DNA of 33,574 bases from Bacteroidota bacterium (GTDB lineage Bacteria; Bacteroidota; Bacteroidia; JABDFU01): contig JACPDY010000113.1 in the NCBI GenBank assembly GCA_016183775.1, positions 1 through 33,574 on the forward strand, written 5' to 3'. A program made the translations under genes and the position numbers. Under the pieces are notes generated by a model. The model was not told where the DNA came from and ran no database searches. It was given only the letters and a program-made list of their open reading frames with translations. The stretch's first letter is position 1. Each line of letters starts with the position of its first letter. This document shows, one piece after another, positions 17,192-33,462 of the stretch.

Positions 17192-17584
17192 TTGAATCAC
17201 AAACAATTCTATAAAGAATTTGGTCATCTATTGTATGCAATAGCCAGTTCAGATGGTAAAGTCCGCAGAAAAGAAGTTGAAGCATTGCGCGAATTTGTAT
17301 TAAAGGAGCTTACTCCTTTTGAGCTTACCTCAGATTCATCGGGTATGAATCAGGCATTTTATACTCAGTTTGAGTTTGATGACATGGCTGATAAACATAT
17401 ACCTGCATCGGAAGTATTTATGTCTTTTGTGCAATATCTGAAAAGCAATGCTCCGCTAATTAACGAACAATTGAAAAATTCAATTATAAAAGCTGTGGAA
17501 AAAGTTGCCCATGCCTATAAAAAAACAAATAAGCTGGAGCAGGAGATGGTAGATAAACTTAAAGAAGAAATTGAAGTATTGTAA
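17192..17584 (+). CDS. TerB-like protein
   Basis: A 130-residue, all-helical soluble protein. YAIASSDGKVRRKEVEALREFV (from residue 15, with Asp21 and Glu28) matches the 'A-x-A-D-G-x(4-6)-E' helix-turn of the TerB/tellurite-resistance and DnaJ-associated family, whose members bind metal ions or sense membrane stress. The C-terminal helix is Lys/Glu-rich (KKTNKLEQEMVDKLKEEIEV). The start is a TTG at 17192, preceded by AAAGGA, a fair ribosome binding site; no ATG in frame suits. It is the first gene after the FNR-like box and 41 bases before the DoxX-like gene, so it likely begins the main transcript. The family assignment is moderate; the function is not known. Confidence 0.65.
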   Translation: MNHKQFYKEFGHLLYAIASSDGKVRRKEVEALREFVLKELTPFELTSDSSGMNQAFYTQFEFDDMADKHIPASEVFMSFVQYLKSNAPLINEQLKNSIIKAVEKVAHAYKKTNKLEQEMVDKLKEEIEVL

Positions 17585-18064: not shown

Positions 18065-18919
18065 ATGAGAACAATACTTGTCCCCACCGATTTTTCTGAG
18101 TGCTCTGCCGATGCAGTAAAATATGCCATCCATTTTGCTGAAAAAACCGGAAGGAAGTTGCTGTTTTTTCATTCCACCTTTCTGCTCATCCCTACCAGGA
18201 GTTCGAATACAGCACACTTAAATGCGGTGAAATCCGATAAACAAACGAAGTTGAAAATGTTGACTGGTTTTATTGAAAAAATTTATCGTTCGCTTAATAT
18301 TAAAAGAGATGAGAATAATACACGATTTCTTGTAAAATTCGGAAATTCCGTTGTAGAAAATATCTCCGAAGTTATTGATGAACAATTTATTGATTTAATA
18401 ATCATCGGTACACATGGAGCTACCGGCTTTAGGAAAGTTTTTGTCGGAAGTAACACGGCAAACGTAATTGAAGAATCCTATTGCCCGGTTCTTGCCATTC
18501 CGCATAAGTATAAGTTCAATGGCATTAAAACAATTGCGTACGCTTCCTCTGATTTGGATAACCTGAAAAAAGAATTAAAAAAAATTATTCCTGTAGCGAA
18601 AAAACTGGAGACTTCGTTGGAAGTATTTCATATTACAGCTGGTGCTGAATCGTTGATTGAAAAACATGAAAAATTCAATTCGGAAGTGTTTATGAAATCT
18701 CTTTCACGCCTTTTCAAATTTCATAATATGAGCTTGTATGTGATTAATGGCGGGAAAAATATTCTGATTGATGCGATCGGAAATTTTGTAAAACACAACA
18801 AGCCTGATATACTTACGATGCTGACACATAAGAGAGGGTTCTTCGAAAAAATATTTAATACGAGTCAAACGAAAGAAATCTCTTATAAATTGAGTGTTCC
18901 ACTAATGGTGTTAAAATAA
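18065..18919 (+). CDS. Tandem-domain universal stress protein 1
   Basis: A 284-residue UspA-family protein with two domains. Domain 1 opens with RTILVPTDFSECSADAVKYA and ends with the ATP-binding signature IIGTHGATGFRKVFVGSNTA, i.e. G-x2-G-x9-G-S, intact. Domain 2 begins with IKTIAYASSDLDN (residues about 155-167). It has lost the ATP signature and ends THKRGFFEKIFNTSQTKEIS before a VPLMVL strand. Such proteins are cytoplasmic, bind ATP and are made under starvation, oxygen or redox stress. First of five Usp genes here, starting 4 bases after the DoxX-like gene. It is about as similar in plan to the other four as tandem duplicates that have diverged a good deal. Confidence 0.92.
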   Translation: MRTILVPTDFSECSADAVKYAIHFAEKTGRKLLFFHSTFLLIPTRSSNTAHLNAVKSDKQTKLKMLTGFIEKIYRSLNIKRDENNTRFLVKFGNSVVENISEVIDEQFIDLIIIGTHGATGFRKVFVGSNTANVIEESYCPVLAIPHKYKFNGIKTIAYASSDLDNLKKELKKIIPVAKKLETSLEVFHITAGAESLIEKHEKFNSEVFMKSLSRLFKFHNMSLYVINGGKNILIDAIGNFVKHNKPDILTMLTHKRGFFEKIFNTSQTKEISYKLSVPLMVLK

Positions 18920-18935
18920 AAAAACAAAAATAACG

Positions 18936-19346
18936 ATGGAAATAATCATAGACAAAAGCAAGAAAATAAATACAATACAAAAGGAATTTCAAAAGCGATT
19001 CCCTTTTTTGAAAATTGAATTTTACAAACAAGCTCATTCTCAGGGGGAGGGTTCGTCAAAGAAAAATACGCTGAACAATGAACTGACTATTGGTGAAGTG
19101 CAGAAAAAACACACATCCGGAACAGTTAAAATAACCGGACTGATGAAGGTTTCAGAACTTGAAAGTGCATTTACAAAAACCTTCGGTTTGTCAGTTCAGG
19201 TTTTTCGCAAATCGGGGAATGTATGGCTTCAAACCACCATAACCGACAATTGGACACTTGCAGAGCAAAATCAAAGAGCGAGTGAAAAAGTGGCCACTGC
19301 TGAAGAAAATATAATTAGTTCAATGGATCGCCAGGAATTGGAATAA
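18936..19346 (+). CDS. Unknown protein within the Usp cluster
   Basis: A 136-residue soluble protein. An N-terminal half (MEIIIDKSKKINTIQKEFQK, then FPFLKIEFYKQAHSQGE) and a second half (TSGTVKITGLMKVSELESAF, then FGLSVQVFRKSGNVWLQTT and TDNWTLAEQNQRASE) read as an alpha/beta fold with a conserved-looking aromatic/Gly patch. I do not recognise a domain with confidence. It has no signal or membrane segment. It lies between two Usp genes with 16- and 20-base gaps, so it is made with them. Proteins with this KSGNVWLQTT-like ending may be typical Usp neighbours in Bacteroidota, but this is from memory and should be searched. Confidence 0.65.
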   Translation: MEIIIDKSKKINTIQKEFQKRFPFLKIEFYKQAHSQGEGSSKKNTLNNELTIGEVQKKHTSGTVKITGLMKVSELESAFTKTFGLSVQVFRKSGNVWLQTTITDNWTLAEQNQRASEKVATAEENIISSMDRQELE

Positions 19347-19366
19347 TAATCTTTAAAAAAGCACCG

Positions 19367-20200
19367 ATGAAAGCAATACTTGTACCAACTGATTTTTCTA
19401 CAAATGCGAACAACGCATTAAAATATGCCAACGCATTTGCACAAGCTGCAAAAAATAAATTAGTATTACTGAATGTTTATAAACCCATAGTAGGGAAGTA
19501 TAATATTATACCCGGAATAATTGCAGAAGAAACTGCGACAGCAAAAAAGGAAAGTAAAAAGAAGCTAAAAGCTTTATGCAACAAATATGTAAAAGCATCT
19601 TGTGCCGAGTTGGTTGAAGTGGGCGATCCAACAGATGAAATCATGGAAGCAGCTCAAAAAAACAAATCCAGCCTGATTATTATGGGAACACATGGCGCAA
19701 GTGGTTTAACAGGAATGCTATTTGGAGGAAAAACTTCCGCTGTAATTTCTAAATCTAATATCCCGGTGCTTGCCATTCCGCAACGTTACCGTTTCAGGAA
19801 AATAAAAACCATTGTTTATGCTTCTGATCTTAAAAATGCGGTAAATGAATTGAAACACCTCATTTCAATAGCTAAATCTCTAAATGCAACAATAGAAATT
19901 CTAAATCTTGATTATGGTTGGGGTGATAATGCAGAGAAAAAGAAGTTACTTGAAAGAAAAATTAAATCAATGGGCTATAAAAAAATAAAACTTGTTGAAC
20001 AAAAAGCAAGCATTGAGGAAACCGTGTTAGAACAAATCAAAAAATACCTTCAAAAAAGCAAACCTGAAATTTTGGCCATGTTCCCTGAAGAGAAGGGGTG
20101 GTTTGATAAAATTTTTATCAGCAGCAAAACCGAAGAGCTTGCCTACCATGTAAAAATTCCTTTGCTTTCAATTAGAAAATCCATTGTTAAACCAAAATAA
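19367..20200 (+). CDS. Tandem-domain universal stress protein 2
   Basis: A 277-residue Usp protein. Domain 1 runs from KAILVPTDFSTNANNALKYA to IIMGTHGASGLTGMLFGGKT. The ATP signature is nearly intact, but the usual G-S/T after the nine-residue gap is Gly-Gly here, so nucleotide binding may differ. Domain 2 begins with IKTIVYASDLKNAVNELKHL and ends EKGWFDKIFISSKTEELAYH with the strand IPLLSI. The C-terminal domain again lacks the ATP motif. Between usp 1's neighbour and usp 3 with gaps of about 20 bases. Confidence 0.9.
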   Translation: MKAILVPTDFSTNANNALKYANAFAQAAKNKLVLLNVYKPIVGKYNIIPGIIAEETATAKKESKKKLKALCNKYVKASCAELVEVGDPTDEIMEAAQKNKSSLIIMGTHGASGLTGMLFGGKTSAVISKSNIPVLAIPQRYRFRKIKTIVYASDLKNAVNELKHLISIAKSLNATIEILNLDYGWGDNAEKKKLLERKIKSMGYKKIKLVEQKASIEETVLEQIKKYLQKSKPEILAMFPEEKGWFDKIFISSKTEELAYHVKIPLLSIRKSIVKPK

Positions 20201-20221
20201 TCGTATAAAACTTAAAATACC

Positions 20222-21046
20222 ATGAGAATTTTAATTCCGACCGATTTTTCAAAACTGTCAAAAGTGGCAGTTCAATATGCCGTTAAAATGTCAAAAAAAC
20301 TTAGTGCAGAACTCGTCCTTCTGCATGTGGTCTATATTGATGCCCCACCTCGTGCTGCTGTTGCTGTAAAAATTAAAAGCATAGAAGATGCGATGGTTGA
20401 TAATGCGACACAAGATTGTATCCAGCTTATTAATGAAATTAAATCAGAGAATAAGGGAAAACTAAACGTATCATACAAAATTATAAAAGGATATCCTGTT
20501 GAAGACGTAGTTGGAAATTTTGCTCATCATAATGATATTTCACTCATCATTATGGGAACCAAAGGTGCAACCGGGTTGAAAAAGGTACTGATGGGCAGCA
20601 ATGCAACGGCAGTAATAAACAACAGCGATATTCCCGTAATTACTGTACCTGAGTTTGCAAGGTTTAAGAACCTTAAACACATTGTTTATGCTACTGATTT
20701 GACAAACCTAAATGCTGAAATGAAGGTGCTTGTTCCGTTGGCAAAGTTGTTTGATGCTACTGTTCATATTTCTCACATTCTTTCACCAAAATCAAAAAAG
20801 AAGGTTGATACAAAAAAAATCATTGCTGATATAATCAGGAAAATGAGTTATCCTAAAATCACTTTCCACATTTTGATGAATGACGATATTACAGAAGGAA
20901 TAGAAGAATACATTGCCGATACAAAAGCCGATATGCTGGCCATGTTCACACATAATCTTACATTCTTTGAAAGACTTTTTGGTAAGAGCGTTACCCGCCA
21001 AATGGCATTTCAAGGCTGGGTTCCATTATTGACTATTAAAAAATAG
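20222..21046 (+). CDS. Tandem-domain universal stress protein 3
   Basis: A 274-residue Usp protein. It opens RILIPTDFSKLSKVAVQYA and has a complete ATP signature, IIMGTKGATGLKKVLMGSNA. The linker PEFARFKNLKHIVYATDLTN starts the degenerate second domain, which ends THNLTFFERLFGKSVTRQMA and a final VPLLTI strand. The second domain is short on Gly and cannot bind ATP in the usual way. It is followed after 5 bases by the VKOR-like gene, so the two are translationally close. Confidence 0.92.
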   Translation: MRILIPTDFSKLSKVAVQYAVKMSKKLSAELVLLHVVYIDAPPRAAVAVKIKSIEDAMVDNATQDCIQLINEIKSENKGKLNVSYKIIKGYPVEDVVGNFAHHNDISLIIMGTKGATGLKKVLMGSNATAVINNSDIPVITVPEFARFKNLKHIVYATDLTNLNAEMKVLVPLAKLFDATVHISHILSPKSKKKVDTKKIIADIIRKMSYPKITFHILMNDDITEGIEEYIADTKADMLAMFTHNLTFFERLFGKSVTRQMAFQGWVPLLTIKK

Positions 21047-21051
21047 AGTGT

Positions 21052-21477
21052 ATGAATAGCTATGTTACAGCAATATTAATTTTCGCAGCAATTGGCATTG
21101 CCAATACAATTTATCTATCATGGTGCTGCATTACACAAAGAGACGTGAAATGTTTGTTTCTGCCAGCCAAGCAGTGCCTTAAAGTGCAACACAGCAAATA
21201 CAGCCGTACAATGGGTATTCCCAATCCTTACCTTGGTTTAGCAATGCTTGTTGCCATTTTTGTGCTCACCATTCTTTTTGTGAAAGGGTCAATTACCTTT
21301 TTAATAATCTTTGGAATTATCGTTTTCGGATTTTTATTTTCCATCTATTTCACTTTAATCCAAGCTGTCAAGCTTAAAGCATTTTGCACTTGGTGTGTAT
21401 TATCTGCTATTGTGTTTACGGTACTTTTTGTTTTATCACTTCTGCAAATGATTTTATTATATCCTAACCAATTTTAA
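21052..21477 (+). CDS. VKOR-like membrane thiol oxidoreductase
   Basis: A 141-residue membrane protein of the vitamin K epoxide reductase family, which makes disulfides in partner thiol oxidases by passing electrons to quinone. It has a four-helix pattern, the loop pair Cys34-x7-Cys42 (spacing as in known VKORs) and the active-site FCTWC (Cys111-Cys114) at the start of the last helix. GIPNPYLGLAML after the loop is also typical. Unlike many bacterial VKORs, no thioredoxin domain is fused, and no DsbA-like gene is adjacent, so a partner must lie elsewhere. It sits between Usp 3 and a small lipoprotein, with 5-base gaps on both sides. It may couple the quinone pool or oxygen state to the cluster's envelope proteins. 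Confidence 0.85.
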   Translation: MNSYVTAILIFAAIGIANTIYLSWCCITQRDVKCLFLPAKQCLKVQHSKYSRTMGIPNPYLGLAMLVAIFVLTILFVKGSITFLIIFGIIVFGFLFSIYFTLIQAVKLKAFCTWCVLSAIVFTVLFVLSLLQMILLYPNQF

Positions 21478-21482
21478 AAATT

Positions 21483-21914
21483 ATGAAAAACAATTACAAA
21501 AATACAGGGAATATTGTCAGCATGTCGCTTGTTTTATTTTTTGCCATTTCCTGCTCTAATGATAAGCTAAAAGAGGAAAAGTCACAAAACGATAATGGAA
21601 AAGAAATAATTAGTGCATCCGATTCAACCGAGATTAAATTTCAGGCCATGAAGGAGAAATACAGCCAGCAGATCAAAGAGGAAATAACGGAGACGGATAA
21701 AAAGATTGATGAATTAAATGAACAATTTGATAAAGCCAAAGGAAAACTAAAAAACAAACTCAAAGAAGAAATAACTGAATGGCAGGCAAAAAAACAAATC
21801 CTCAAAGAAACCTGGGATAAAATTGAAAAAACTACTAAGGATAATTGGGAGAATTTTGAAAAAGAAATGAAAGACACATTGAGAATGGTGCAAGATAGCG
21901 TAAAAACAAAATGA
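21483..21914 (+). CDS. Coiled-coil lipoprotein
   Basis: A 143-residue protein with a lipoprotein signal: the hydrophobic stretch VSMSLVLFFAISC, with Cys27 as the likely lipid-accepting residue. The rest is almost entirely charged heptad-like helix (KEEITETDKKIDELNEQFDK, then KGKLKNKLKEEITEWQAKKQ, ending ETWDKIEKTTKDNWENFEKE). It has no known domain. It probably stands in the periplasm as a long coiled coil, attached to inner or outer membrane. Five bases after the VKOR-like gene and 19 before Usp 4, so it belongs to the same transcript. No cysteines remain after the lipid Cys, so it is not the VKOR partner. Confidence 0.75.
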   Translation: MKNNYKNTGNIVSMSLVLFFAISCSNDKLKEEKSQNDNGKEIISASDSTEIKFQAMKEKYSQQIKEEITETDKKIDELNEQFDKAKGKLKNKLKEEITEWQAKKQILKETWDKIEKTTKDNWENFEKEMKDTLRMVQDSVKTK

Positions 21915-21933
21915 ACAAACAAAAATTATTTTT

Positions 21934-22776
21934 ATGAAAACAATACTTGTACCAACCGATTTTTCTAAGTGCGCCTATAATGCTGCTAACTATGCGGTAG
22001 CACTGGCCAAAGCAACTAAAGCAAAAGTAATTTTGTTGCACGTTTATCAGGCTCCTGTTCCTCCACCAGAGACATATATAAGTCCCATTTCAATTACAGA
22101 ACTTTATGAGGCAAACATGAAGCGTTTGAAGAAAATGGCTGACTTTGAACTTAGTATAAACACTGAAACATCAGAACTTGAAATTAATTGCGAAGCGAAA
22201 GCAGGTTTAGTAGTTAGCGAAATTATTGATGCTGCAAAAAAATATAACGCAGGAATGATTGTAATGGGAACGGAGGGTGCTACCGGTGTAATTAAAAAGT
22301 ACATACTTGGAAGTAATGCTGCCAATGTAATTGCAAAATCACCCTGCCCCGTGTTGGCTGTACCTGAAAACGCAAAATATCTTGGGTTCAAGCAAATTGT
22401 TTTTGCTGCTGATTTTCACGAAGTAAAAAACAATTCATCTTTTGATTCGTTAGCTGAAATTTCACTTCTTTTTGATTCGAAGATCTTGATTCTATCCGTC
22501 AGTAAAAATAAAGGTGATATTCCGTCAATAACCGAGGCATTTGAAGGGCTAAATCTTGATAAGGTTTTTGAACGTATTCCGAATAGTTTTCATAATGTAG
22601 TTTCAGAAGATACTGCGAGAAAAATTAGTGATTTCGTAAATACAAACAACGCTGATCTGTTGGTTACCATGCCGCAAAAGCATAGTTATCTTGAATTGAT
22701 TTTTAATAAGAGCATCACGCGTGATCTTGTATTTCATACACAAACACCAATCCTCTGTTTACCCGAAAAACAATAA
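21934..22776 (+). CDS. Tandem-domain universal stress protein 4
   Basis: A 280-residue Usp protein. It opens KTILVPTDFSKCAYNAANYA. The signature VMGTEGATGVIKKYILGSNA has ten rather than nine residues between G-x2-G and G-S, a one-residue insertion that may bend the phosphate loop. Domain 2 starts GFKQIVFAADFHEVKNNSS and ends HSYLELIFNKSITRDLVFH with a TPILCL strand. It is followed after 26 bases by the eRF1-like gene. Confidence 0.9.
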   Translation: MKTILVPTDFSKCAYNAANYAVALAKATKAKVILLHVYQAPVPPPETYISPISITELYEANMKRLKKMADFELSINTETSELEINCEAKAGLVVSEIIDAAKKYNAGMIVMGTEGATGVIKKYILGSNAANVIAKSPCPVLAVPENAKYLGFKQIVFAADFHEVKNNSSFDSLAEISLLFDSKILILSVSKNKGDIPSITEAFEGLNLDKVFERIPNSFHNVVSEDTARKISDFVNTNNADLLVTMPQKHSYLELIFNKSITRDLVFHTQTPILCLPEKQ

Positions 22777-22802
22777 TCTCTGTATAAAAAAATCATAGAA
22801 CG

Positions 22803-23213
22803 ATGAAAAAACAAACTGGTATTTGGATAGATGGTTCAAAAGCAATAATTGTTACGCTGTTTGGTGGGCAGGAAAGTATAAAGGAAATTGAATCCGATAT
22901 TGAAAATCGTATTTATCACGAAAAGGAAGGAGATAAAGGATCATTTATGGGAAGCCGGCACATCAATAATGAGAAAAAATTTGAAGAAAGAAGAAAACAC
23001 CAGACATACAGCTTTCTGAAAAGTGTGTTGGAACAAATAAAGCATAATGATGAGCTTTATGTTTTTGGGCCTGCTGAAATCAAAACAAAATTAAAACAGC
23101 ACATTGAAAAGGAAGGAAATGGTGTAGTCAATAAATTAAAATCAGTCAAAACAGCTGATAGCATGTCCTTGAATCAGGTGGTAGCAAAAGTGAAGAAATT
23201 TTATGATTTATAA
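22803..23213 (+). CDS. Possible bacterial eRF1/Pelota-like protein
   Basis: A 136-residue soluble protein: KKQTGIWIDGSKAIIVTLFG at the start, a charged middle with GSRHINNEKKFEERRKHQTY, and DELYVFGPAEIKTKLKQHIEK near residues 80-100. The 'G-x-W-I-D-x-x-K-A' start and the 'L-x-x-F-G-P-A-E-x-K' stretch recall the small host-attachment or bacterial eRF1-like (BaeRF) group, which share a fold with ribosome release and rescue factors. The match is by eye and weak. It could join Usp-mediated stress with translation, but this is guesswork. Found between Usp 4 and Usp 5, same strand. Confidence 0.55.
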   Translation: MKKQTGIWIDGSKAIIVTLFGGQESIKEIESDIENRIYHEKEGDKGSFMGSRHINNEKKFEERRKHQTYSFLKSVLEQIKHNDELYVFGPAEIKTKLKQHIEKEGNGVVNKLKSVKTADSMSLNQVVAKVKKFYDL

Positions 23214-23244
23214 TACAACTCCGTACAAAAACATCTTTTAGCCA

Positions 23245-24120
23245 ATGAAGATTATAAAAACGATTATTGTGCCTACCGACTTCTCAATTCCTGCTGATAA
23301 TACAGTGCATTATGCAATGAAGCTGGCAAATGTATTTGATGCTTCCATTATACTTTATCACTCTTTCATTCCATTTGAAAGCGGTTTTTACCCCCGCGCT
23401 CAAAGCCAAAAGGAAAATAAGAATACGGAGGATAATTTAATTAATCGTCTTGCCAAAATTAAAGACAAACTTTTGAAATCAAACAAAAATATTCCTGTTT
23501 CTATTCATGTTGATCGGGGACCGGAAAGCCTTCGATTGGCAGAGTTTTGCAAGAAAAAGAAAATTGACTTAATAGTAGTGGGAGCGAAAGGTGCAAGCGG
23601 ACTAAAAGAAGTTGTAATTGGAAGTTTTACTGCCGATACAATGACTAAAGCTCCTTGCCCTGTATTAGCGATTCCGCAAAAATGTAAATTTAAAATCCCT
23701 AAAAAAATAACTTTCGCATCCGATTATCACAAAAAGGACATTCAGACAATCAAATTCCTTTTAAAATGGAATGAACCGTTTAAGGCAAAAATTAATATAC
23801 TGCATATAGATGACGGGAAATACATACCCGCATTTGAAGAAGAAATATTCAGGAATTATAAAAGAAAGATTGAAAAGCAGTGTAAAGATAATTCTCTTTC
23901 TTTTCAGCATGTTGAAGAAAAGGACATCTCAAAAGCAATTTTACACATTACCTTAAATGATAAAACAGATATTTTAGTTTTATCACCAATAAAAAGAGAA
24001 GAGATTTGGAATCGCTTGTTTCATAAAAGCATAACAAAATCTACCGCTTATCATATCCGCTTTCCATTACTAACAATTCCGATTAAAAGCCATGAAAATA
24101 CTATTCAAAATAAAGTATGA
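23245..24120 (+). CDS. Tandem-domain universal stress protein 5
   Basis: A 291-residue Usp protein. It begins IKTIIVPTDFSIPADNTVHY and has an intact signature, VVGAKGASGLKEVVIGSFTA. Domain 2 starts PKKITFASDYHKKDIQTIKF and ends EIWNRLFHKSITKSTAYHI with FPLLTIP. Its last codon overlaps the start of mrpA in ATGA (24117-24120). This is the classic sign of translational coupling, so its level should track that of the Mrp antiporter. This join is the strongest physical link between the Usp part and the ion-transport part of the cluster. Confidence 0.92.
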   Translation: MKIIKTIIVPTDFSIPADNTVHYAMKLANVFDASIILYHSFIPFESGFYPRAQSQKENKNTEDNLINRLAKIKDKLLKSNKNIPVSIHVDRGPESLRLAEFCKKKKIDLIVVGAKGASGLKEVVIGSFTADTMTKAPCPVLAIPQKCKFKIPKKITFASDYHKKDIQTIKFLLKWNEPFKAKINILHIDDGKYIPAFEEEIFRNYKRKIEKQCKDNSLSFQHVEEKDISKAILHITLNDKTDILVLSPIKREEIWNRLFHKSITKSTAYHIRFPLLTIPIKSHENTIQNKV

Positions 24121-26423
24121 ATCCGATCTTAACCTGCCTGAGTATTATTTTCGCAGGAGCTATAGCGGCTCCGTTCATCTGCCGCCTGTTTAAAAAATAT
24201 TCGCCCTGGTTGCTTTGCCTCTTTCCACTCCTTTCTTTTACAGGATTTTTAAGTTTAGCTCCACATGTATTTTCAGGAAAACGTCTCATAGAAAAATATG
24301 AATGGGTAAATGCACTCGAATTCAATTTTCAATTTGACCTTGATGGGTTAAGTTTGCTCTTCGTGCTGTTAATTACCGGCATCGGAACGCTTATTATTAT
24401 TTATGCCGGCTCGTATCTTTCAAAAGATAAAAATCTGCCAAATTTCTATTCTTTTATATTCATCTTCATGGGAGCCATGCTTGGCATGATGCTTTCTGAT
24501 AATATTTTTGTACTCTTTATTTTCTGGGAACTTACAAGCATCAGCTCCTACCTGTTAATTGGATATAACCATGAAGAAGAAAATGCAAGAAAGTCGGCCC
24601 TCCAGGCGTTGCTGGTGACAGGCACGGGAGGACTGGCATTATTAGCAGGATTGATACTGGCTGCTAATGCCGCTGGATCTCCCAATATTTCCGATTGGAT
24701 TGCAGGCGGGAGAACTTTAATTGACTCCAAACATTTTGGTTTAATGCTCACCCTTCTGCTGCTAGGTGCATTTACAAAATCAACTCAGTTTCCATTTCAT
24801 TTCTGGCTGCCCAACGCTATGGCAGCGCCCACTCCTGTAAGCGCCTATTTACATTCCGCCACTATGGTAAAAGCGGGAATATACCTCCTCGCCCGGCTTA
24901 ATCCTTATTTTTTTCAGGCGGAAGAATGGCGTTATTCATTAATCTTCCTCGGAGGAATTACCATGCTGGTCGGGGCTGTGTCTGCACTGTTTCATTCTGA
25001 CCTAAAAAAAATCCTTGCGTATACAACAATATCTGCCCTGGGAGTAATGGTTTTAGCCATCGGTATCGGAACACCGCAAGCTATACAGGGATTGGTGGTA
25101 TTTTTACTTGCTCATGCCATTTACAAAGGCGCACTGTTCATGATAGCCGGAAATATTGACCATGCAACAGGCACACGGGATATAAATAAACTTTCGGGCT
25201 TGTTCAGGAATATGCCCTTCACTGCTTTTGCTGCCATGCTTGCTGCCTTATCCATGGCGGGAATCCCTTTTATGCCAGGCTTCTTATCCAAAGAACTTTT
25301 TTATGGAGCCATAATGGAATCTCCCGAATTATCTTTACTGTTGTCTTTAATCATTGTATCCGCCAACAGTATTTTCGTTGTTATTGCGCTGCTGCTTGGA
25401 TGGAAATTATTTTTCAATACTCCGTTTCTGAAAAAACCACAACTTGCTGAAGTAGCTCCCGGCATGTATCTCGGCCCTGTTGTTCTGGGAATTGCGGGTA
25501 TGTTTATCGTTATTTTTCCGTTCCTAAAAGCGGAGACGCTGCTTGCAAGCGCGGCAGTTTCTGTTTCCCGCTCAGCTGCAGGATGGGAACTGCGAATATG
25601 GCATGGCTTTACTTCTGTTTTAGGATTAAGCGCCCTTACGCTTCTGCTTGGCTGGCTTGTATACAGGTTTCATGAAACCATTTTTAATAAATTCAGCCAA
25701 TGGATTTACAAACTGGAAAAATACGGCCCCGAAGCTATTTATAATTTATCCTGGAAAGCAATAATCCGTTTTGCCGAAGTGATCATATCTATTGTACAAA
25801 ACGGCTATCTGCGTTTTTATATCATGAGCATCCTGGCTACTTTGATCTTCTTTATTTTATTTACTATTCATCATTACAACCTTGTTGAATTCAATTTCTC
25901 TTTTTCGGGAATTGAAATATATGAAATACTCCTTACCATACTTGTTATATCAGCAATTGTGTTTGTTGTCATTTCAAAATCACGCCTGATTGCCGTTGTT
26001 ATTCTGGGTGTAGTAGGATATGGTGTGGCCTTATTTTACGCCATCTACGGAGGAGCTGACCTTGCTATGACCCAATTCCTGGTGGAAACACTTACCGTAG
26101 TAATTTTCGTATATATCCTGTCGAAACTTCCGGGATTTATTAGTCTTTCTTCCCGCATACAGAGATGGCGTGACATTTTAATTGCTTTTACAGGTGGTGC
26201 AACTATAACCACTATAATGTTATTGGTAACAAACTATCCGCTTGTTTCGGAATTGAAGGCTTTTTTTGGCGAGAACAGTTATTTGCTTGGAAAAGGAAGA
26301 AATGCCGTGAACGTTATACTGGTTGACTTCAGAGCGCTGGATACATTGGGAGAAATTACAGTGCTTGCCATTGTCGCCCTTGGTGTCTTCGCATTAATAA
26401 AATTTAAATCCCAAACAAGCTAA
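24117..26423 (+). CDS. mrpA: Na+/H+ antiporter subunit A
   Basis: A 768-residue, many-helix membrane protein, the largest subunit of the seven-part Mrp (Mnh/Sha) antiporter, related to NuoL of complex I. The NuoL-like core holds [20 protein letters not shown], with the conserved Glu, then [19 protein letters not shown] and [20 protein letters not shown]. The C-terminal DUF4040 region has [20 protein letters not shown] near residue 645, as in full-length MrpA. Length is normal. It exchanges cytoplasmic Na+ for protons. The start overlaps the stop of Usp 5. The gene is followed by mrpB-G in canonical order. Confidence 0.96.
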
Positions 26424-26443
26424 ACATAAATTTTTGTCAACGA

Positions 26444-26848
26444 ATGAAATCACTGATATTACAAACAACAGTTAAAATCCTATTTCCTTTCCTGGTCATT
26501 GCGTCTGTATTGTCATTATTCAGGGGGCATAATGAACCGGGAGGCGGATTTATAGGGGGCTTGGTGGCCGCCTCGGCATTCATACTGCTCACGTTTGCCT
26601 TTGGAGTAAAGGAAACAGAGAAAAGAGTGTATATAAAACCCATGTTGTTTACAATTATTGGATTAACCTGCGCTTTTATGGCTTTAGTGCTGCCGGTGAT
26701 GTTTGGGTTTAATTTTTTTGAAGCGATATGGGCGGATTTTAAACTCCCGATTATCGGAAGGCCCGGAACACCGCTGTTATTTGATACCGGTGTTTACTTA
26801 GTTGTTACAGGAACGGTATGCAAAATAATTTTTGTAATAGGCGATTGA
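26444..26848 (+). CDS. mrpB: Na+/H+ antiporter subunit B
   Basis: A 134-residue membrane protein with four predicted helices. [20 protein letters not shown] near residue 26 is the family hallmark, and [18 protein letters not shown] near the end fits too. It starts 20 bases after mrpA. MrpB is needed for assembly and activity of the antiporter complex. Confidence 0.95.
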
Positions 26849-26890
26849 TGAATTATAATATAATTTGATGAAACTAACATTTACTGAATA

Positions 26891-27244
26891 ATGGAATTTT
26901 TTTTATCCATATTAACGGGTGTACTTTACACTGCATCCTTTTACATGATGCTGAGACGTAGTATGGTAAAATTAATTTTCGGCATGGTGTTATTCAGCCA
27001 TGCTTCCAACCTGCTCATCTTAACCCTGGGAAGATTATCAAAAGGAAATCCCCCGATCATTCCCGAACACGCGGAACTCCTTACTACCCCTTATGCCGAC
27101 CCTCTTCCACAGGCAATGATTTTAACTGCCATTGTAATTAGCTTTGGCATACAGGTATTTGCCATCGTGCTTATAAGAAGAGCATATGAAGAAACAGGCA
27201 GCGATGATTTAGATAAACTGACGTCAACGGATAAAATACAATAG
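26891..27244 (+). CDS. mrpC: Na+/H+ antiporter subunit C
   Basis: A 117-residue NuoK-like subunit with three helices. [20 protein letters not shown] and [20 protein letters not shown] are typical; NuoK-type proteins carry the same A-L-x-L-T-A-I-V-I pattern. It starts 42 bases after mrpB and forms part of the ion path with MrpA and MrpD. Confidence 0.95.
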
Positions 27245-27304
27245 ATATATGGCAACTATAAAATTTTACATCATCTACCTGCTGTCAGCTAACCGCCACT
27301 GTAT

Positions 27305-28795
27305 ATGAATTTAGTAGTACCCATACTTATCCCTTTCTTAACCGCTTTGCTTTGTCTTGCGGCATGGCGAATGAGACGGCTTCAGGGCTGGCTCACGGTT
27401 GGCGGCATGGGAGTAATGCTCTATACTGCTTATGTTCTTTTTATTAGTGTTAGGGCAAAAGGCATTATGAGCCTGCAAATGGGAAACTGGAATGCCCCCT
27501 TCGGCATCACCCTTTCGGCAGATTTGCTTTCCTGCATTATGCTCATTATGGCGGCCCTCATCGGGTTAGCTGTAAGTTTTTATTCCATTGCTTCCGTGGA
27601 TGAGGAAAGACAATCCTTCGGATTTTATCCCCTGTTCAATTTTCTTATTTTCGGAGTAGCGGGTGCATTTGCAGCAGGCGATATTTTTAACCTCTATGTA
27701 TGGTTTGAAATCATGTTGATCTCTTCTTTTGTGATGCTGGCGCTGGGAGGAAAAAAAGAACAACTCGAAGGTTCAATAAAATATGTAGCGCTTAATTTTC
27801 TTTCTTCCGGCTTTTTTTTAGCCGGGGTTGCCATTCTCTACAGTATTACCGGCACATTAAACATGGCTCATCTTGCTCAGCAGGCGGCAGTTGTTCCTGA
27901 AAAAGGATTGCTTGCGGTTGCCTCTGTATTTTTCTTAATTGCTTTCGGCATCAAAGCAGCTGTATTTCCTTTATTCTTCTGGTTGCCCGCTTCCTATCAT
28001 ACACCTCCCGTTGCAGTAACGGCAATATTCTCCGGCCTTCTGACCAAGGTGGGTGTATATGCACTTATTCGTATGTTTAGCCTGATCTTTGTATTTGACA
28101 CCGGCTACACACATACCATATTGATGATTTTATCTGCGTTAACTATGATAGTGGGAGTGCTTGGCCCTATCATACATCATGATTTCAGAAGGATATTATC
28201 ATTTCATATCGTCAGCCAGATTGGCTATATTATTATGGGCATGGCAATCTTCAGTCCTCTTGCACTTGCCGGAAGTATTTTTTTTATTATGCACATTATC
28301 CTGGTAAAGACCAATCTTTTTCTCATCAGCGGCATCGTGCATTACCTAAAAGGAAGTTTTAACCTGCGATTTGCGGGGGGCATTTATCGTGATTATCCCT
28401 GGCTTGCCTTTCTATTTCTTGTTCCTGCCCTTGCGCTTGCAGGGTTACCGCCCTTTTCCGGTTTTTGGGCAAAAATTATTCTTATAAAATCGGCTATTGA
28501 CGCGGAACTTTTTTGGCTCCTGTTTATTGCGTTGGGTGTAAGTTTACTGACTTTATATTCCATGACTAAAATATGGAATGAAGTTTTTTGGGCAAACGAA
28601 GCGGAGGCGAAGGACACTTCAGAACATTTTGCCATAAGCTCCGGTCCATTATGGATGATGGCATTGCCGGTAATTTTTTTGGTTGGCTGCACTTTGCTGA
28701 TCGGGCTTTATCCGGTACCATTTTTTAAGCTCGCGGAAGAAACAGCTCTCCAACTGCTGAACAGGAATGAATATATAAAAGCAATTTTGCATTAA
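27305..28795 (+). CDS. mrpD: Na+/H+ antiporter subunit D
   Basis: A 496-residue NuoM/N-like subunit with about fourteen helices. FNLYVWFEIMLISSFVMLAL, with the conserved Glu, FGIKAAVFPLFFWLPASYHT, with the conserved Lys, and HIVSQIGYIIMGMAIFSPLA are present. It pairs with MrpA as one of the two antiporter-like units. It follows mrpC with a 60-base gap that carries no gene. Confidence 0.95.
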   Translation: MNLVVPILIPFLTALLCLAAWRMRRLQGWLTVGGMGVMLYTAYVLFISVRAKGIMSLQMGNWNAPFGITLSADLLSCIMLIMAALIGLAVSFYSIASVDEERQSFGFYPLFNFLIFGVAGAFAAGDIFNLYVWFEIMLISSFVMLALGGKKEQLEGSIKYVALNFLSSGFFLAGVAILYSITGTLNMAHLAQQAAVVPEKGLLAVASVFFLIAFGIKAAVFPLFFWLPASYHTPPVAVTAIFSGLLTKVGVYALIRMFSLIFVFDTGYTHTILMILSALTMIVGVLGPIIHHDFRRILSFHIVSQIGYIIMGMAIFSPLALAGSIFFIMHIILVKTNLFLISGIVHYLKGSFNLRFAGGIYRDYPWLAFLFLVPALALAGLPPFSGFWAKIILIKSAIDAELFWLLFIALGVSLLTLYSMTKIWNEVFWANEAEAKDTSEHFAISSGPLWMMALPVIFLVGCTLLIGLYPVPFFKLAEETALQLLNRNEYIKAILH

Positions 28796-28816
28796 ACAAA
28801 AAGAGATGAACAACAA

Positions 28817-29311
28817 ATGAAATGGCTCCTGATTAATATTGTCATAGCCCTGGCCGGATATTATTTTGCCGGCAATTTTGTAGCGCTTAATTATGAAAAG
28901 CCTGCGATTTTCCTCCTTGTATTCAGCAGTCTATTTCTTTCTTTCTGGCTGTTGACTTTCCTCTTAAACAGGCAGTATTTCTTTAAAGTTCCGAAGATTA
29001 TTAAATTCATTGGCTTTATCCTGAAAGAATTATTTATCAGTAATCTCCGCATAACCTATGATGTTTTAACGCCGGGACACCGGATGAATCCTGCAATTAT
29101 AGCCCTCCCCCTGGATGCGCAAACCGATATTGAAATCGTTGCACTTGCTATCCTTATCACATTCACACCTGGTACACTGGGTTTAAAAGTATCAGAAGAT
29201 AAAAGAATACTATATATACATGAAATGTATATACCTGACAATGATGTGGAAGCAGCAAAAAAAAGAATTAAAAACGGATTTGAACGAAGATTACTCGAAA
29301 TAACCAGATAA
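28817..29311 (+). CDS. mrpE: Na+/H+ antiporter subunit E
   Basis: A 164-residue subunit: two N-terminal helices (LLINIVIALAGYYFAGNFVA and IFLLVFSSLFLSFWLLTFLL), then a cytoplasmic domain with ALAILITFTPGTLGLKVSED and ILYIHEMYIPD. The T-P-G-T motif marks the MrpE family. It starts 21 bases after mrpD and ends 4 bases before mrpF. Confidence 0.94.
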   Translation: MKWLLINIVIALAGYYFAGNFVALNYEKPAIFLLVFSSLFLSFWLLTFLLNRQYFFKVPKIIKFIGFILKELFISNLRITYDVLTPGHRMNPAIIALPLDAQTDIEIVALAILITFTPGTLGLKVSEDKRILYIHEMYIPDNDVEAAKKRIKNGFERRLLEITR

Positions 29312-29315
29312 AAAG

Positions 29316-29570
29316 ATGGCAATCATTATCTCCTTAATACTATCAATTCTTGCTACAGCGCCAATAATGTACCGTCTTTTAAAAGGCCCGTCCATTGCCG
29401 ACCGTGTTGCCGCATTTGATGTGCTGACATGTACTGTTATGGGAATGATTGGAATTCTCAGTATTAAAACTGATAATACTGTTTACATTGACGTGGTTTT
29501 GACCATGTCTTTCGTGGTTTTTTTAGGCGCAATTGCGTTTGCATATTATATGGAAAAAAGAAAAAAATAA
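29316..29570 (+). CDS. mrpF: Na+/H+ antiporter subunit F
   Basis: An 84-residue, three-helix subunit. YRLLKGPSIADRVAAFDVLT near residue 18 is the family signature, with its conserved Arg, Gly-Pro and Asp. It starts 4 bases after mrpE, suggesting coupled translation. Confidence 0.94.
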   Translation: MAIIISLILSILATAPIMYRLLKGPSIADRVAAFDVLTCTVMGMIGILSIKTDNTVYIDVVLTMSFVVFLGAIAFAYYMEKRKK

Positions 29571-29621
29571 ACATCGTTTAGAATTCAAGAAAAAACAGAC
29601 CATTTGTAAAAAAAAATTAAA

Positions 29622-29945
29622 ATGCTGACGAATATTAGTATCTGTATGGGTATCTCTTTTATTTTGATTGCTGCCATAGGCATCATTCGGATGCCCGACG
29701 TACTAACGCGGATGTCAGTGGTTTCAAAAGCGATAACATTTGGTCTGGGATTTATTTTATTGGGCATAATTATTCATTTTAATGATACCTCCACATTTAT
29801 TAAAGTTGCCATCATTTATATTTTCCTTTCTTTATCCACCTCAATAGCTGCTTCTGTCATTGGGCTTGCAGCCTATAATGACAAAAAAACAAAATTAAGC
29901 GATCTGACTTTTTTGGATGAGATGAACGATGAGAAGAAACAGTAA
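29622..29945 (+). CDS. mrpG: Na+/H+ antiporter subunit G
   Basis: A 107-residue, three-helix subunit with IGIIRMPDVLTRMSVVSKAI near residue 20, matching the 'G-x-x-R-x-P-D-x-x-x-R-x-H/S' family pattern. With it the Mrp set A-G is complete and in the usual order. It ends 58 bases before the exchanger gene. Confidence 0.93.
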   Translation: MLTNISICMGISFILIAAIGIIRMPDVLTRMSVVSKAITFGLGFILLGIIIHFNDTSTFIKVAIIYIFLSLSTSIAASVIGLAAYNDKKTKLSDLTFLDEMNDEKKQ

Positions 29946-30003: not shown

Positions 30004-31014
30004 ATGAATAATATATATATACATATTGCCGGATTTTTAGTTTGTGCCGCAATTATTATTTATAGCGGTACCAAACTTTCCTTTTACGGAGATAAAATTG
30101 CCGAGCTCACAGGAATGGGCAAGGCCTGGGTAGGGCTTATTTTAATGGCGTCAGTTACTTCATTGCCTGAATTAATAACAGGGATTAGTTCAGTAGCCAT
30201 TGTTAAAGCACCCAACCTGGCAGCCGGAGATATTTTTGGCAGCTGCGTATTTAACCTGCTCATACTTTCTGTTTTAGATACCAGGATAAAACAACCTCTT
30301 TTTTCAATGGTCAAATCAAGTCATATCGTAGCAGCAATTTTCGGAATTATTTTATTAACGGTAACAGGTATGGCAATTTACTTGTCGGATGAAATACCGT
30401 CCGTATTATGGATAAGCAGTTTTTCATTTGTCCTGTTTGGAATATATTTAGTATCTATATGGGGCATTTTTAAATATGAACATGCCGCTTTGATTGAATC
30501 TCCGCCATTGGAAATTCCTCAAAACTCTTCCCATTCTGCCGACCTGAAAAAAGTTATTGGCGGCTATGCGCTACATGCCTTAATTGTAATTGGTGCAGCT
30601 ATATTTCTACCCTATTTTGGCGATCACATTGCAACACATACGGGTTTAGGTAATGCATTTTTCGGCACACTATTTATTGCTGCGGCAACATCTTTACCCG
30701 AATTGGTAGTTTCCCTAGCTGCGTTACGAATGGGCTCGTTGGATATGGCTGTTGGAAATTTATTGGGCAGCAATGTGTTTAATATGTTTATACTCGGCAT
30801 TGATGATATTTTTTACCGGGAAGGTTCCTTGTTTAATGCCATTTCTCCCTCTCATTTGTTATCGGTATTTGTTACGATTATTATGACCGCTGTAGTAGGG
30901 TTAGGGCTACTTTTTAAACCAAAGAAAAAACAACTATGGCTTTTAAGCCTTGATACTTTTATAATTGCCCTTCTATACATGGCTCTTATGACCTATTTAT
31001 TTATTAAAAAATAA
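30004..31014 (+). CDS. CaCA-family Ca2+/cation exchanger
   Basis: A 336-residue inner-membrane antiporter with two inverted alpha repeats. Repeat 1 is MASVTSLPELITGISS with LAAGDIFGSCVFNLLIL. Repeat 2 is AAATSLPELVVSLAALRMG with MAVGNLLGSNVFNMFILG. Each repeat brings the ion-binding Glu of 'T-S-L-P-E-L'. Members (YrbG/MaxB type) usually move Ca2+ out in exchange for Na+ or H+. In repeat 1 the usual G-N-x-x-G-S-N reads G-D-x-x-G-S-C, which could alter ion choice. Coming straight after Mrp, it could use the Na+ gradient that Mrp creates. It starts 58 bases after mrpG and ends 12 before the ATPase gene. Confidence 0.88.
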   Translation: MNNIYIHIAGFLVCAAIIIYSGTKLSFYGDKIAELTGMGKAWVGLILMASVTSLPELITGISSVAIVKAPNLAAGDIFGSCVFNLLILSVLDTRIKQPLFSMVKSSHIVAAIFGIILLTVTGMAIYLSDEIPSVLWISSFSFVLFGIYLVSIWGIFKYEHAALIESPPLEIPQNSSHSADLKKVIGGYALHALIVIGAAIFLPYFGDHIATHTGLGNAFFGTLFIAAATSLPELVVSLAALRMGSLDMAVGNLLGSNVFNMFILGIDDIFYREGSLFNAISPSHLLSVFVTIIMTAVVGLGLLFKPKKKQLWLLSLDTFIIALLYMALMTYLFIKK

Positions 31015-31026
31015 AGTAACAGGAAA

Positions 31027-33462
31027 ATGAACTGGCATTTATTACCTCTTGCCGAAATATCTCAGTTGTTAAATACAACACCGTCAGGCATTGATAATTT
31101 AACTGCCTCGCAGCGGTTGGTTGAGCACGGTAAAAATCAGATCACTGACAAAAAAAAGAAAACCGTTTTTCAGATGCTGCTGCATCAGTTAATGGATTTC
31201 ATGATTCTCATCCTTATTTCAGCGGCAGTTATATCGGGCATTTTAGGAGATATGACAGACACTATAATTATTCTTGCCATCATTATTCTGAATGCAGCTG
31301 TTGGAATAATACAAGAGTATCGTGCCGAAAAAGCAATAGAGGCACTAAAGCAATTGGCAGCCACCAACGCCCGTATTCTGCGTGAAGGAAAAGCTGCTGA
31401 TGTTCCTGCTTCTGATTTAGTGCCCGGAGATGTGGTGATACTTGAAGCCGGAAATATTATTCCTGCTGATATACGATTTTTTGAAACGCATCAAATTAAA
31501 GTAGATGAATCAGCGCTCACAGGCGAATCGCATAATGTAGAAAAAGACTCCAATGAATTGCCCGAAGGAGATTACCCGCTCGGTGACAGAATAAACATGG
31601 GCTTTAAGGGAACATTTATTACAAATGGCCGTGCGCTTGCCTATGTGGCCGCAACAGGTATGGGCACTGAACTTGGGCGGATCGCAAAAATGATTCAAAC
31701 CGATGAAACATCAACACCACTGCAAAAAAGATTAGCTACATTTGGAAAACGCTTGTCAGTAGGAATATTGATTATTTGCACGGTAATATTTCTTATTGGC
31801 TGGATGAGAGGCGAAGAAATATTAACCATGTTGTTAACTTCCATTTCGCTTGCAGTTGCAGCCATACCGGAAGCATTACCTGCATTGGTAACCATAGCGC
31901 TTGCGTTTGGTGCAAAACGATTAGTGAAAAGCAATGCACTTATCCGTAAACTACCTGCTGTCGAAACCCTTGGCTCTGTTACTTACATTTGCTCCGATAA
32001 AACCGGCACGCTTACACTCAATAAAATGACGGTGCAGGAAATTTATGAAGCAGAAATTGACAACTCCAATGTTGTGTTTTCAGATAGCCATCCTTTACTC
32101 ACTGCAATGGCATTAAACAACGATGTTTCAAAAGACAATGACGGAAAATGGCTAGGCGATTCAACAGAAGTTGCCCTGGTTCAATATGCTTTCGATAATA
32201 ATTCAGAGAGAAGCGATTTGGAAACAAAGTTTCCAAGAATTGCAGAATTGCCCTTTGATTCCACAAGGAAGTGCATGACCACATTGCATGAAACTAAAAA
32301 TGGAATCATTGCGATAACAAAAGGTGCAGTGGATGTATTACTCGGAAAACTGAATAATGAACAACAATCACTTATTATTGAATTTGAACGCAAAGTAAAT
32401 GAGATGGCTGAAAAAGGTTATCGGGTTTTAGGATATGCAATTAAAATGCTGCCGGCTTTGCCGGAGAAGATAAATACTGATGAAATAGAAACATCATTAA
32501 CACTTATTGGCTTTGCCGGAATGATCGATCCTCCGCGTGAAGAAGCAAAACAAGCAGTAGCGGAATGTAAACAAGCAGGAATTATTCCTGTGATGATAAC
32601 AGGCGACCATAAACTCACCGCCAAAGCCATTGCAAAACAATTAGGAATAATTTCCTCTGAAGAAGACATCGTATTAAACGGTTCCGAACTTGCCAAATTA
32701 ACACTTGATGAGTTTGAAAAAATTGTAGAAAGAGTGCGTGTGTATGCTCGGGTAAATCCTGAACAAAAACTAAAGATCATACGTGCCTTACAAGACAAGC
32801 ATCACTTTGTAGCTATGACGGGCGATGGTGTGAATGACGCACCCGCGCTAAAAAATGCCGATATCGGTATTGCAATGGGTATCAACGGAACCGAAGTATC
32901 CAAGGAGGTATCACACATGATTTTGCTTGATGATAATTTTGCAACAATTGTTATTGCCGTAAAACACGGGCGAAGAATTTTTGATAATATTTTAAAATTC
33001 ATCAAATACATTATGACCGGAAATTCAGGGGAAATATGGGCAATTTTTCTTGCCCCATTCTTCGGTCTGCCAATTCCGTTGTTGGCAATACATATTCTGT
33101 GGATTAATCTTGTAACTGATGGATTACCGGGCTTAGCACTTGCTTCTGAGCCGTCAGATGCCAACATTATGAAACGAAAGCCAAGAAATCCAAAGCAAAA
33201 TATTTTTGCAGGAGGCATGGCATTGCACATTTTATGGGTAGGATTTTTAATGGGCGTAGTAACCATTGGAATGCAGGCTTATGCAATACAAAGTGAAAAT
33301 TCACATTGGCAAACAATGGCTTTTTCTGTGCTTTGCTTCAGCCAGCTGGGACATGTAATGGCAATTCGTTCAGAGGGAGTATCCATTTTTAAAATAGGCG
33401 TGTTTTCTAATAAGCCATTATTAGGGGCATTATTTCACCCGAGTTTGACACTTGATTTTTAA
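31027..33462 (+). CDS. Type II Ca2+-ATPase, C-terminally truncated
   Basis: An 811-residue P-type ATPase of the SERCA/PMCA-like group. Domain order: actuator with LTGESHNVE (about 164-172), TM4 motif IPEALPALVT (about 280-289), phosphorylation site CSDKTGTLTLNKM (Asp324), hinge TGDGVNDAPALKNADIGIAM (from about 598), TM5 NSGEIWAIFLAPFFGLPIPL and TM6 ILWINLVTDGLPGLALA. The retained Glu, Asn and Asp of TM4-TM6 fit Ca2+ site II. TM8 carries Gln, not Glu, suggesting a one-ion pump. Homologues run to about 870-900 residues. Here the protein breaks off at ALF (residue ~803), inside TM9, followed by the eight foreign residues HPSLTLDF and a stop. TM9 and TM10 are lost. The gene may still make protein, but normal function is doubtful. 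Last gene of the cluster. Confidence 0.88.
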   Translation: MNWHLLPLAEISQLLNTTPSGIDNLTASQRLVEHGKNQITDKKKKTVFQMLLHQLMDFMILILISAAVISGILGDMTDTIIILAIIILNAAVGIIQEYRAEKAIEALKQLAATNARILREGKAADVPASDLVPGDVVILEAGNIIPADIRFFETHQIKVDESALTGESHNVEKDSNELPEGDYPLGDRINMGFKGTFITNGRALAYVAATGMGTELGRIAKMIQTDETSTPLQKRLATFGKRLSVGILIICTVIFLIGWMRGEEILTMLLTSISLAVAAIPEALPALVTIALAFGAKRLVKSNALIRKLPAVETLGSVTYICSDKTGTLTLNKMTVQEIYEAEIDNSNVVFSDSHPLLTAMALNNDVSKDNDGKWLGDSTEVALVQYAFDNNSERSDLETKFPRIAELPFDSTRKCMTTLHETKNGIIAITKGAVDVLLGKLNNEQQSLIIEFERKVNEMAEKGYRVLGYAIKMLPALPEKINTDEIETSLTLIGFAGMIDPPREEAKQAVAECKQAGIIPVMITGDHKLTAKAIAKQLGIISSEEDIVLNGSELAKLTLDEFEKIVERVRVYARVNPEQKLKIIRALQDKHHFVAMTGDGVNDAPALKNADIGIAMGINGTEVSKEVSHMILLDDNFATIVIAVKHGRRIFDNILKFIKYIMTGNSGEIWAIFLAPFFGLPIPLLAIHILWINLVTDGLPGLALASEPSDANIMKRKPRNPKQNIFAGGMALHILWVGFLMGVVTIGMQAYAIQSENSHWQTMAFSVLCFSQLGHVMAIRSEGVSIFKIGVFSNKPLLGALFHPSLTLDF

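Follow-up and report, generated by a model that had tools for sequence, protein, structure and literature searches.

Tandem universal stress proteins (Usps), in which two Usp domains are joined in one chain, raise the question of what the second domain is kept for once it has lost the ATP-binding motif. We addressed this question in a stretch of 33,574 nucleotides from a Bacteroidota bacterium (contig JACPDY010000113.1; hereafter the window), where open reading frame (ORF) calling located five tandem Usps, U1 to U5, all on the + strand at positions 18065-24120. The initial annotation had observed that their second, C-terminal domains (D2) share a closing pattern although the ATP motif of the first domains (D1) is gone, and had proposed that this conservation points to a kept function other than ATP binding, such as dimer contact or partner binding. 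Our analyses favor, with a probability of about 0.68, the interpretation that each chain forms an intramolecular Usp pseudo-dimer, with D2 as its non-ATP half and mainly a structural partner of D1. In many Bacteroidota tandem Usps, the second half would then be a selected partner domain devoid of the ATP motif rather than a product of decay. Tandem Usps of which one half is degenerate have been described before, namely TTHA0350, UspE and PA1789 (PMC3673472, PMC4750201). In the titles, abstract openings and passages of the open-access literature, closed-access work being outside this scope, no description of the Bacteroidota D2 was found.

The second domain is a Usp domain without the glycine loop

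The five whole proteins scored 86.4 to 121.4 bits with the Usp family PF00582 (curated cut-off 24 bits), the best stretch being the first domain, and Pfam recognized a second stretch in 4 of the 5. D2 belongs to the same family: the second domain of U3 by itself obtained 33 bits against the cut-off of 24, and 64 out of a set of 67 D2 matched PF00582 at an expectation (E) value ≤0.01. In the five-protein alignment, D1 presents V/I-P-T-D-F-S and a glycine loop in common; the motif G-2x-G-9x-G-S is complete in U1, U3 and U5, the loop of U2 ends in G-G in place of G-S, and in that of U4 the second gap is ten residues long, one more than in the motif. The ATP motif had been described as gone from each second domain, and this was borne out, with no match to G-2x-G-9x-G-(S/T) in D2 of any of the five proteins. 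Across the phylum sample, the glycines of D2 are gone at all three motif positions, which are often occupied by bulky or charged residues (V, I or F at 242; K at 245; R, E or K at 255), and Gly118 is replaced by Phe.

The closing signature lies in the ordinary Usp register

The closing pattern of the five D2, [hydrophobic/aromatic]-x2-3-[IL]-F-x-x-S-x-T followed by P-[LI]-[LM], was confirmed with the letters and coordinates of the initial annotation. The opening I-x-[YF]-A-[ST/A]-D, instead of V-P-T-D-F-S, was also found as described, being longer by one residue in U1. Ten columns are invariant in the five-sequence D2 alignment, including F, S, T and P of the signature as well as A and D of the opening. 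Nevertheless, U1 to U5 are not five independent samples, since U1, U2 and U3 fall in one starred tree group of 26 rows, 24 of which have the Ser.

Alignment of the D1 and D2 profiles (probability 99.6, E 2.6e-23; E 3.6e-20 when repeated with other rows) placed S-x-T of D2 on G-S-x-T of D1 and P-[LI]-[LM] on P-V-L with no gap between them, that is, in the register of the ATP loop, alpha4 and beta5 of D1, while the opening I-x-[YF]-A-[ST]-D corresponded to the V-P-T-D strand. The solved ATP-binding Usp MJ0577 (1mjh) displays LLGSVTENVI in the same register. An alignment profile was needed for such comparisons, as a single-sequence phmmer search with D2 of U2 against PDB sequences returned no Usp at E ≤10. 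Given this register, the signature is not a new motif but mostly what survives of the ordinary Usp pattern after the loss of the three glycines.

What sets D2 apart is the aromatic segment F-F-x-x-[IL]-F, located where D1 carries the glycine loop. It was assessed in a collection of 305 tandem Usps, for which a D1 match sufficed and sequences more than 75% identical were dropped; most of its loci were drawn from the five-protein profile or from the D2 profile of a phylum scan, and are biased to that extent. With the poor or non-Usp rows L062, L048 and L246 excluded, 302 rows remained, 285 of them with a degenerate and 17 with a canonical D2. Position 248 is aromatic in 188/285 degenerate versus 1/17 canonical D2, and the equivalent position of D1 is Gly in 70% of the D1-canonical rows. 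The possibility that the signature is only residual fold core, raised at the outset, thus applies to S-x-T and P-[LI]-[LM] and not to the aromatic segment. His264 was also considered as a D2-specific signature and was rejected, as it is present in 11/17 canonical D2 too.

Conservation of the signature and turnover of Ser and Thr

Conservation was quantified in 192 tandem Usps below 70% identity, taken from this genome, its relatives and 80 named loci, nearly all of them Bacteroidota; each had to match a profile built from the window's five proteins in both of its halves, which biases this set towards them, and those five were removed to give the counts over 187 rows. The full literal pattern occurred in 50/187 other D2, compared with 5/187 D1 and a mean of 0.6/187 in shuffled D2, and F-x-x-S-x-T alone in 59/187 D2 versus 4.4 in shuffled D2. 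The nine signature columns had a mean relative entropy of 2.36 versus 1.10 for the remaining D2 columns outside the signature and the opening (p 2e-5). When D2 columns were classed by predicted secondary structure, the six loop/helix signature columns (mean 2.03) exceeded the helices (0.91; p 3e-5) and all other D2 columns (p 0.001), whereas their difference from the strands (1.47) gave p 0.10. This classification replaced a comparison in which the strand core had been selected by hand after the column table had been viewed (p 0.79). Judged by these alignments, the D2 signature is real and well conserved, yet not clearly above the fold core.

Beyond U1 to U5, most D2 do not show the exact pattern: F, S and T are together in register in 63/187 other D2 and in 78/285 degenerate D2. 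The truly fixed positions of the degenerate D2 are P268 (281/285), [LM]270 (267/285) and [IL]252 (219/285). Among the 305 tandem Usps, position 256 of a degenerate D2 is Ser in 166, Pro in 65 and another residue in 56, while 17 have a canonical D2 and 1 has a gap. Ser256 is kept in 166/285 degenerate D2, Thr is present in 104/285, and Pro replaces Ser in 65/302 rows. On a FastTree phylogeny of the 302 rows, inferred with the motif columns removed, residue 256 (Ser, Pro or other) underwent at least 48 changes, with 18 for Pro alone, 11 of which are forced by starred branches. In view of how often Ser and Thr are replaced, S-x-T was rejected as a polar functional signature of general validity. 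A coupled change of 256 and 258 was not used as evidence either: Thr is found in 103/182 Ser rows versus 0/65 Pro rows (Fisher p 2e-19), but this association may reflect descent, because the tree offers only 8 independent pairs, in a mean of 0.7 of which Thr differs. The turnover of Ser256 would hardly fit a catalytic or phosphate-binding hydroxyl and would rather fit a helix start; in the U2 model described below, alpha4 starts directly after the signature Ser (Ser253; helix 254-261), with low confidence there. As a marker to tell these proteins from double-canonical Usps, the aromatic segment and the P-x-L strand are usable, with S-x-T being optional.

D2 is under purifying selection and widespread in Bacteroidota

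For an orthologue comparison, the window was set against L085, a syntenic metagenome-assembled genome of Flavobacteriales, which provided four orthologous pairs; U4 was omitted, as no orthologue of it was found in L085. The pooled ratio of nonsynonymous to synonymous substitution rates (dN/dS) was 0.140 for D2 and 0.143 for D1, and signature residues were identical in 35/36 cases versus 410/501 for the other D2 residues (Fisher p 0.008). Purifying selection acts on D2 as strongly as on D1. Furthermore, the D2 profile had matches at E ≤0.001 in 285/296 genomes sampled over the phylum Bacteroidota, with up to 14 candidates scored per genome; since the weaker matches may be other Usp domains, the specific D2 type is present in at most this number of genomes. 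It is highly improbable that D2 is a decaying remnant without function: the lost ATP motif and a mean relative entropy somewhat lower in D2 than in D1 (1.24 vs 1.46 overall) would agree with decay, but the equal selection on both domains and the spread over the phylum argue against it. To this extent the proposal of a kept function stood, as D2 is under selection; a function of its own, apart from ATP binding, does not follow from the signature, which lies in the ordinary Usp register, is not clearly separated from the strands, and has its Ser and Thr often replaced.

Structural models and the proposed role of D2

AlphaFold2 predicted complete tandem folds for U3 and U2, with a mean predicted local distance difference test score (pLDDT) of 89.0 and 88.7, respectively. 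The U3 model, a prediction and not a solved structure, aligned with solved tandem Usps end to end at Z 20-24: AF1760 (3loq) gave Z 24.0 over 252 residues, UspE 23.2-23.7 (23.7 for 5cb0), TTHA0350 (3ab8) 22.6 over 246 residues, and Rv2623 22.1, also end to end; the alignments with 3loq, 5cb0 and 3ab8 span 246-260 residues. The aromatic segment of D2 is predicted as a short helix in both models (247-253 in U3; 247-250 in U2, followed by 254-261), and the counterpart in D1 is an unstructured, low-confidence loop. With Z up to 13.8, the U3 model also resembles the cytoplasmic domain of cation-chloride cotransporters, a fold similarity that was already known.

Single-domain Usps dimerise through the alpha4/beta5 element, and the two repeats of tandem Usps pack against each other by way of this element in the manner of a type 1 dimer (PMC3673472). 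By analogy, D1 and D2 would be in contact through alpha4/beta5 of D2, which makes dimer contact the plausible part of the original proposal, as the signature lies on this interface element; a separate, new function was not supported. We propose that each protein would be a covalently linked Usp dimer with the nucleotide loop kept in the first half alone. D2 would be a true Usp domain minus the three glycines and would serve mainly as a permanent partner for D1; S-x-T at the start of its alpha4 and P-[LI]-[LM] in its beta5 strand would represent the remains of the Usp dimerisation element. The aromatic segment, as a short helix, would replace the flexible ATP loop and probably plug the dead pocket. 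The sensing or binding of ATP would be left to D1 alone, and D2 would stabilise D1 and shape the partner-facing surface. If so, a testable question arises, namely whether the nucleotide state of a Usp is read through its dead half.

Several observations weigh against this interpretation. Residues 254-262 of the U3 model, which hold S-x-T, have a pLDDT below 50, and the S-x-T region of the U2 model one of 53-60, so the modelled geometry of the loop is tentative. Further, many D2 retain the Ser and the opening Asp, which are part of the site in canonical Usps. D2 might still bind ATP or another adenine nucleotide despite the lost glycines, a possibility in line with the conservation of the opening Asp in 207/285 degenerate D2 and with that of Ser256. 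There is a precedent in TTHA0350 of Thermus thermophilus (3ab7/3ab8), which resembles U1 to U5 in having a canonical N-terminal and a degenerate C-terminal domain, but whose C-terminal domain was found ATP-bound without the motif (PMC3673472, PMC12159084); the loss of the motif does not therefore imply the loss of ATP binding. TTHA0350 was not found by the D2 profile at E ≤1. We nevertheless regard nucleotide binding by these D2 as very unlikely, considering the bulky or charged residues at the three glycine positions, the Phe in place of Gly118, and the rows with Pro instead of Ser. A D2 that is free of ATP, as the pseudo-dimer interpretation supposes, is what these replacements suggest.

Relationship of D2 to other Usps

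Family assignments differed between the two domains. The matches of 48 D1 were to UspE (47), UspG (47), UspF (41), UspC (22), UspA (21) and UspD (4), whereas those of 67 D2 were to UspA (8), UspC (5), UspD (4), UspG (4) and UspF (2), with UspE not among the best 25 of the 37 families matched. When E. coli Usps other than UspC and UspD were scored, the D2 profile gave 30.2 bits for UspA, 26.5 for UspG, 18.7 for UspF, 12.5 for UspE2 and 2.0 for UspE1, and the D1 profile 66.2 for UspG, 59.1 for UspF, 40.9 for UspE2, 40.0 for UspA and 14.2 for UspE1. D1 thus resembles ATP-type Usps, and D2 appears to lean towards the non-ATP, UspA-like ones, the latter being a lead only. Like D2, class I UspA (E. 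coli; 1jmv of Haemophilus) has no glycine motif, and it presents F-W-x-K-L-M at the place corresponding to the aromatic segment (HHQDFWSKLMSS in E. coli); unlike U1 to U5, it is a single-domain protein, it is two residues shorter before alpha4, and its similarity to D2 is weak.

These data bear on the alternative that D2 functions like UspA (class I) and actively binds a partner or ligand. Its aromatic helix and alpha4 would then provide the surface or pocket in which a protein partner, a lipid-like molecule or a different nucleotide is accommodated. Apart from the family counts, the profile scores and the UspA segment, it could draw on the hydrophobic ligand pocket of UspE (PMC4750201). However, UspA leads UspG by 3.7 bits only, the common FW-x-KL piece may be convergent, UspA is two residues shorter there, and no partner or ligand was indicated by any analysis run; we consider this alternative unlikely, and prefer the pseudo-dimer with a mainly structural D2.

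UspE/YdaA (E. coli, Salmonella and Proteus; 5cb0, 4r2j, 4wy2) is similar to U1 to U5 in having one ATP-motif half and one degenerate half per chain, but its ATP motif is in the C-terminal half and not in the N-terminal one. The first half of UspE groups with class I and the second with UspF/G (PMC3673472); the domain order of U1 to U5 would be the reverse of this arrangement. The 2.0 bits obtained by the first half of UspE with the D2 profile speak against such a reversed order, and the UspE model PRK11175 gave U3 33 bits against a cut-off of 227, the match being of the second half of UspE to D1. A still bolder and quite unlikely possibility is that these proteins are phylum-wide heterotypic Usps, in which an ATP-sensing UspF/G-type half would precede a UspA-type half, in the order opposite to UspE, and the aromatic helix of D2, acting as a lid for a partner or ligand, would read out the nucleotide state of D1. 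AF1760 of Archaeoglobus, the best structural match to the U3 model, differs in that its C-terminal domain is without the aromatic segment in the alignment (SRGAGSVMTMILGS).

Another class of Bacteroidota tandem Usps was observed, with D2 ending in G-P-[YFS]-A-Q-Q-[IV]-V-N-H-S-x-[VI]-P-V-L-S (L006:64-960, L222:1288-2175, L214:1278-2174).

Feature coordinates and neighbouring genes

Table 1. Positions of the Usp genes, of the D2 elements and of neighbouring genes in the window.
Feature	Position	Strand	Basis
U1, tandem Usp, 284 aa	18065..18919	+	ORF; PF00582 87.9 bits, two stretches
U2, tandem Usp, 277 aa	19367..20200	+	ORF, Pfam, AlphaFold2 model
U3, tandem Usp, 274 aa	20222..21046	+	ORF, Pfam, AlphaFold2 model
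U4, tandem Usp, 280 aa	21934..22776	+	ORF, Pfam
U5, tandem Usp, 291 aa	23245..24120	+	ORF, Pfam
U1 D2 opening IAYASSD	18533..18553	+	sequence
U2 D2 opening IVYASD	19811..19828	+	sequence
U3 D2 opening IVYATD	20681..20698	+	sequence
U4 D2 opening IVFAAD	22396..22413	+	sequence
U5 D2 opening ITFASD	23707..23724	+	sequence
U1 D2 closing signature FFEKIFNTSQT...PLM	18839..18907	+	D2 alignment; identical in L085
U2 D2 closing signature WFDKIFISSKT...PLL	20099..20167	+	D2 alignment
U3 D2 closing signature FFERLFGKSVT...PLL	20963..21031	+	D2 alignment; model helix 247-253
U4 D2 closing signature YLELIFNKSIT...PIL	22687..22755	+	D2 alignment
U5 D2 closing signature IWNRLFHKSIT...PLL	24004..24072	+	D2 alignment
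TerB-like ORF	17192..17584		PF05099 23.5 bits, just below cut-off 24.4
136-aa ORF between U1 and U2	18936..19346		no Pfam match above cut-off
Release-factor-like ORF between U4 and U5	22803..23213		resembles bacterial archaeo-eukaryotic release factor family 5, 24 bits vs cut-off 27
Mrp/Mnh-type operon, A-G	24117..29945		
Ca/Na exchanger gene	30004..31014		
Ca2+ P-type ATPase	31027..33462		

Non-Usp neighbours were sought in the 80 named loci, among which only L085 is clearly syntenic and 20 others hold one to three of them; with such scant sharing, the neighbourhood does not explain D2. Homologues of the TerB-like ORF, located upstream of the Usp cluster, occur in 14/80 of these loci, those of the release-factor-like ORF in 10/80, and those of the 136-aa ORF in 4/80. 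L085 has an extra tandem Usp (L085:6525-7343) between its TerB-like and DoxX genes, a place at which the window is without one. Downstream, U5 is adjoined by a complete operon for a monovalent cation/H+ antiporter of the Mrp/Mnh type, the stop of U5 overlapping the start of MrpA, and the operon is followed by the Ca/Na exchanger gene and then by the Ca2+ P-type ATPase.

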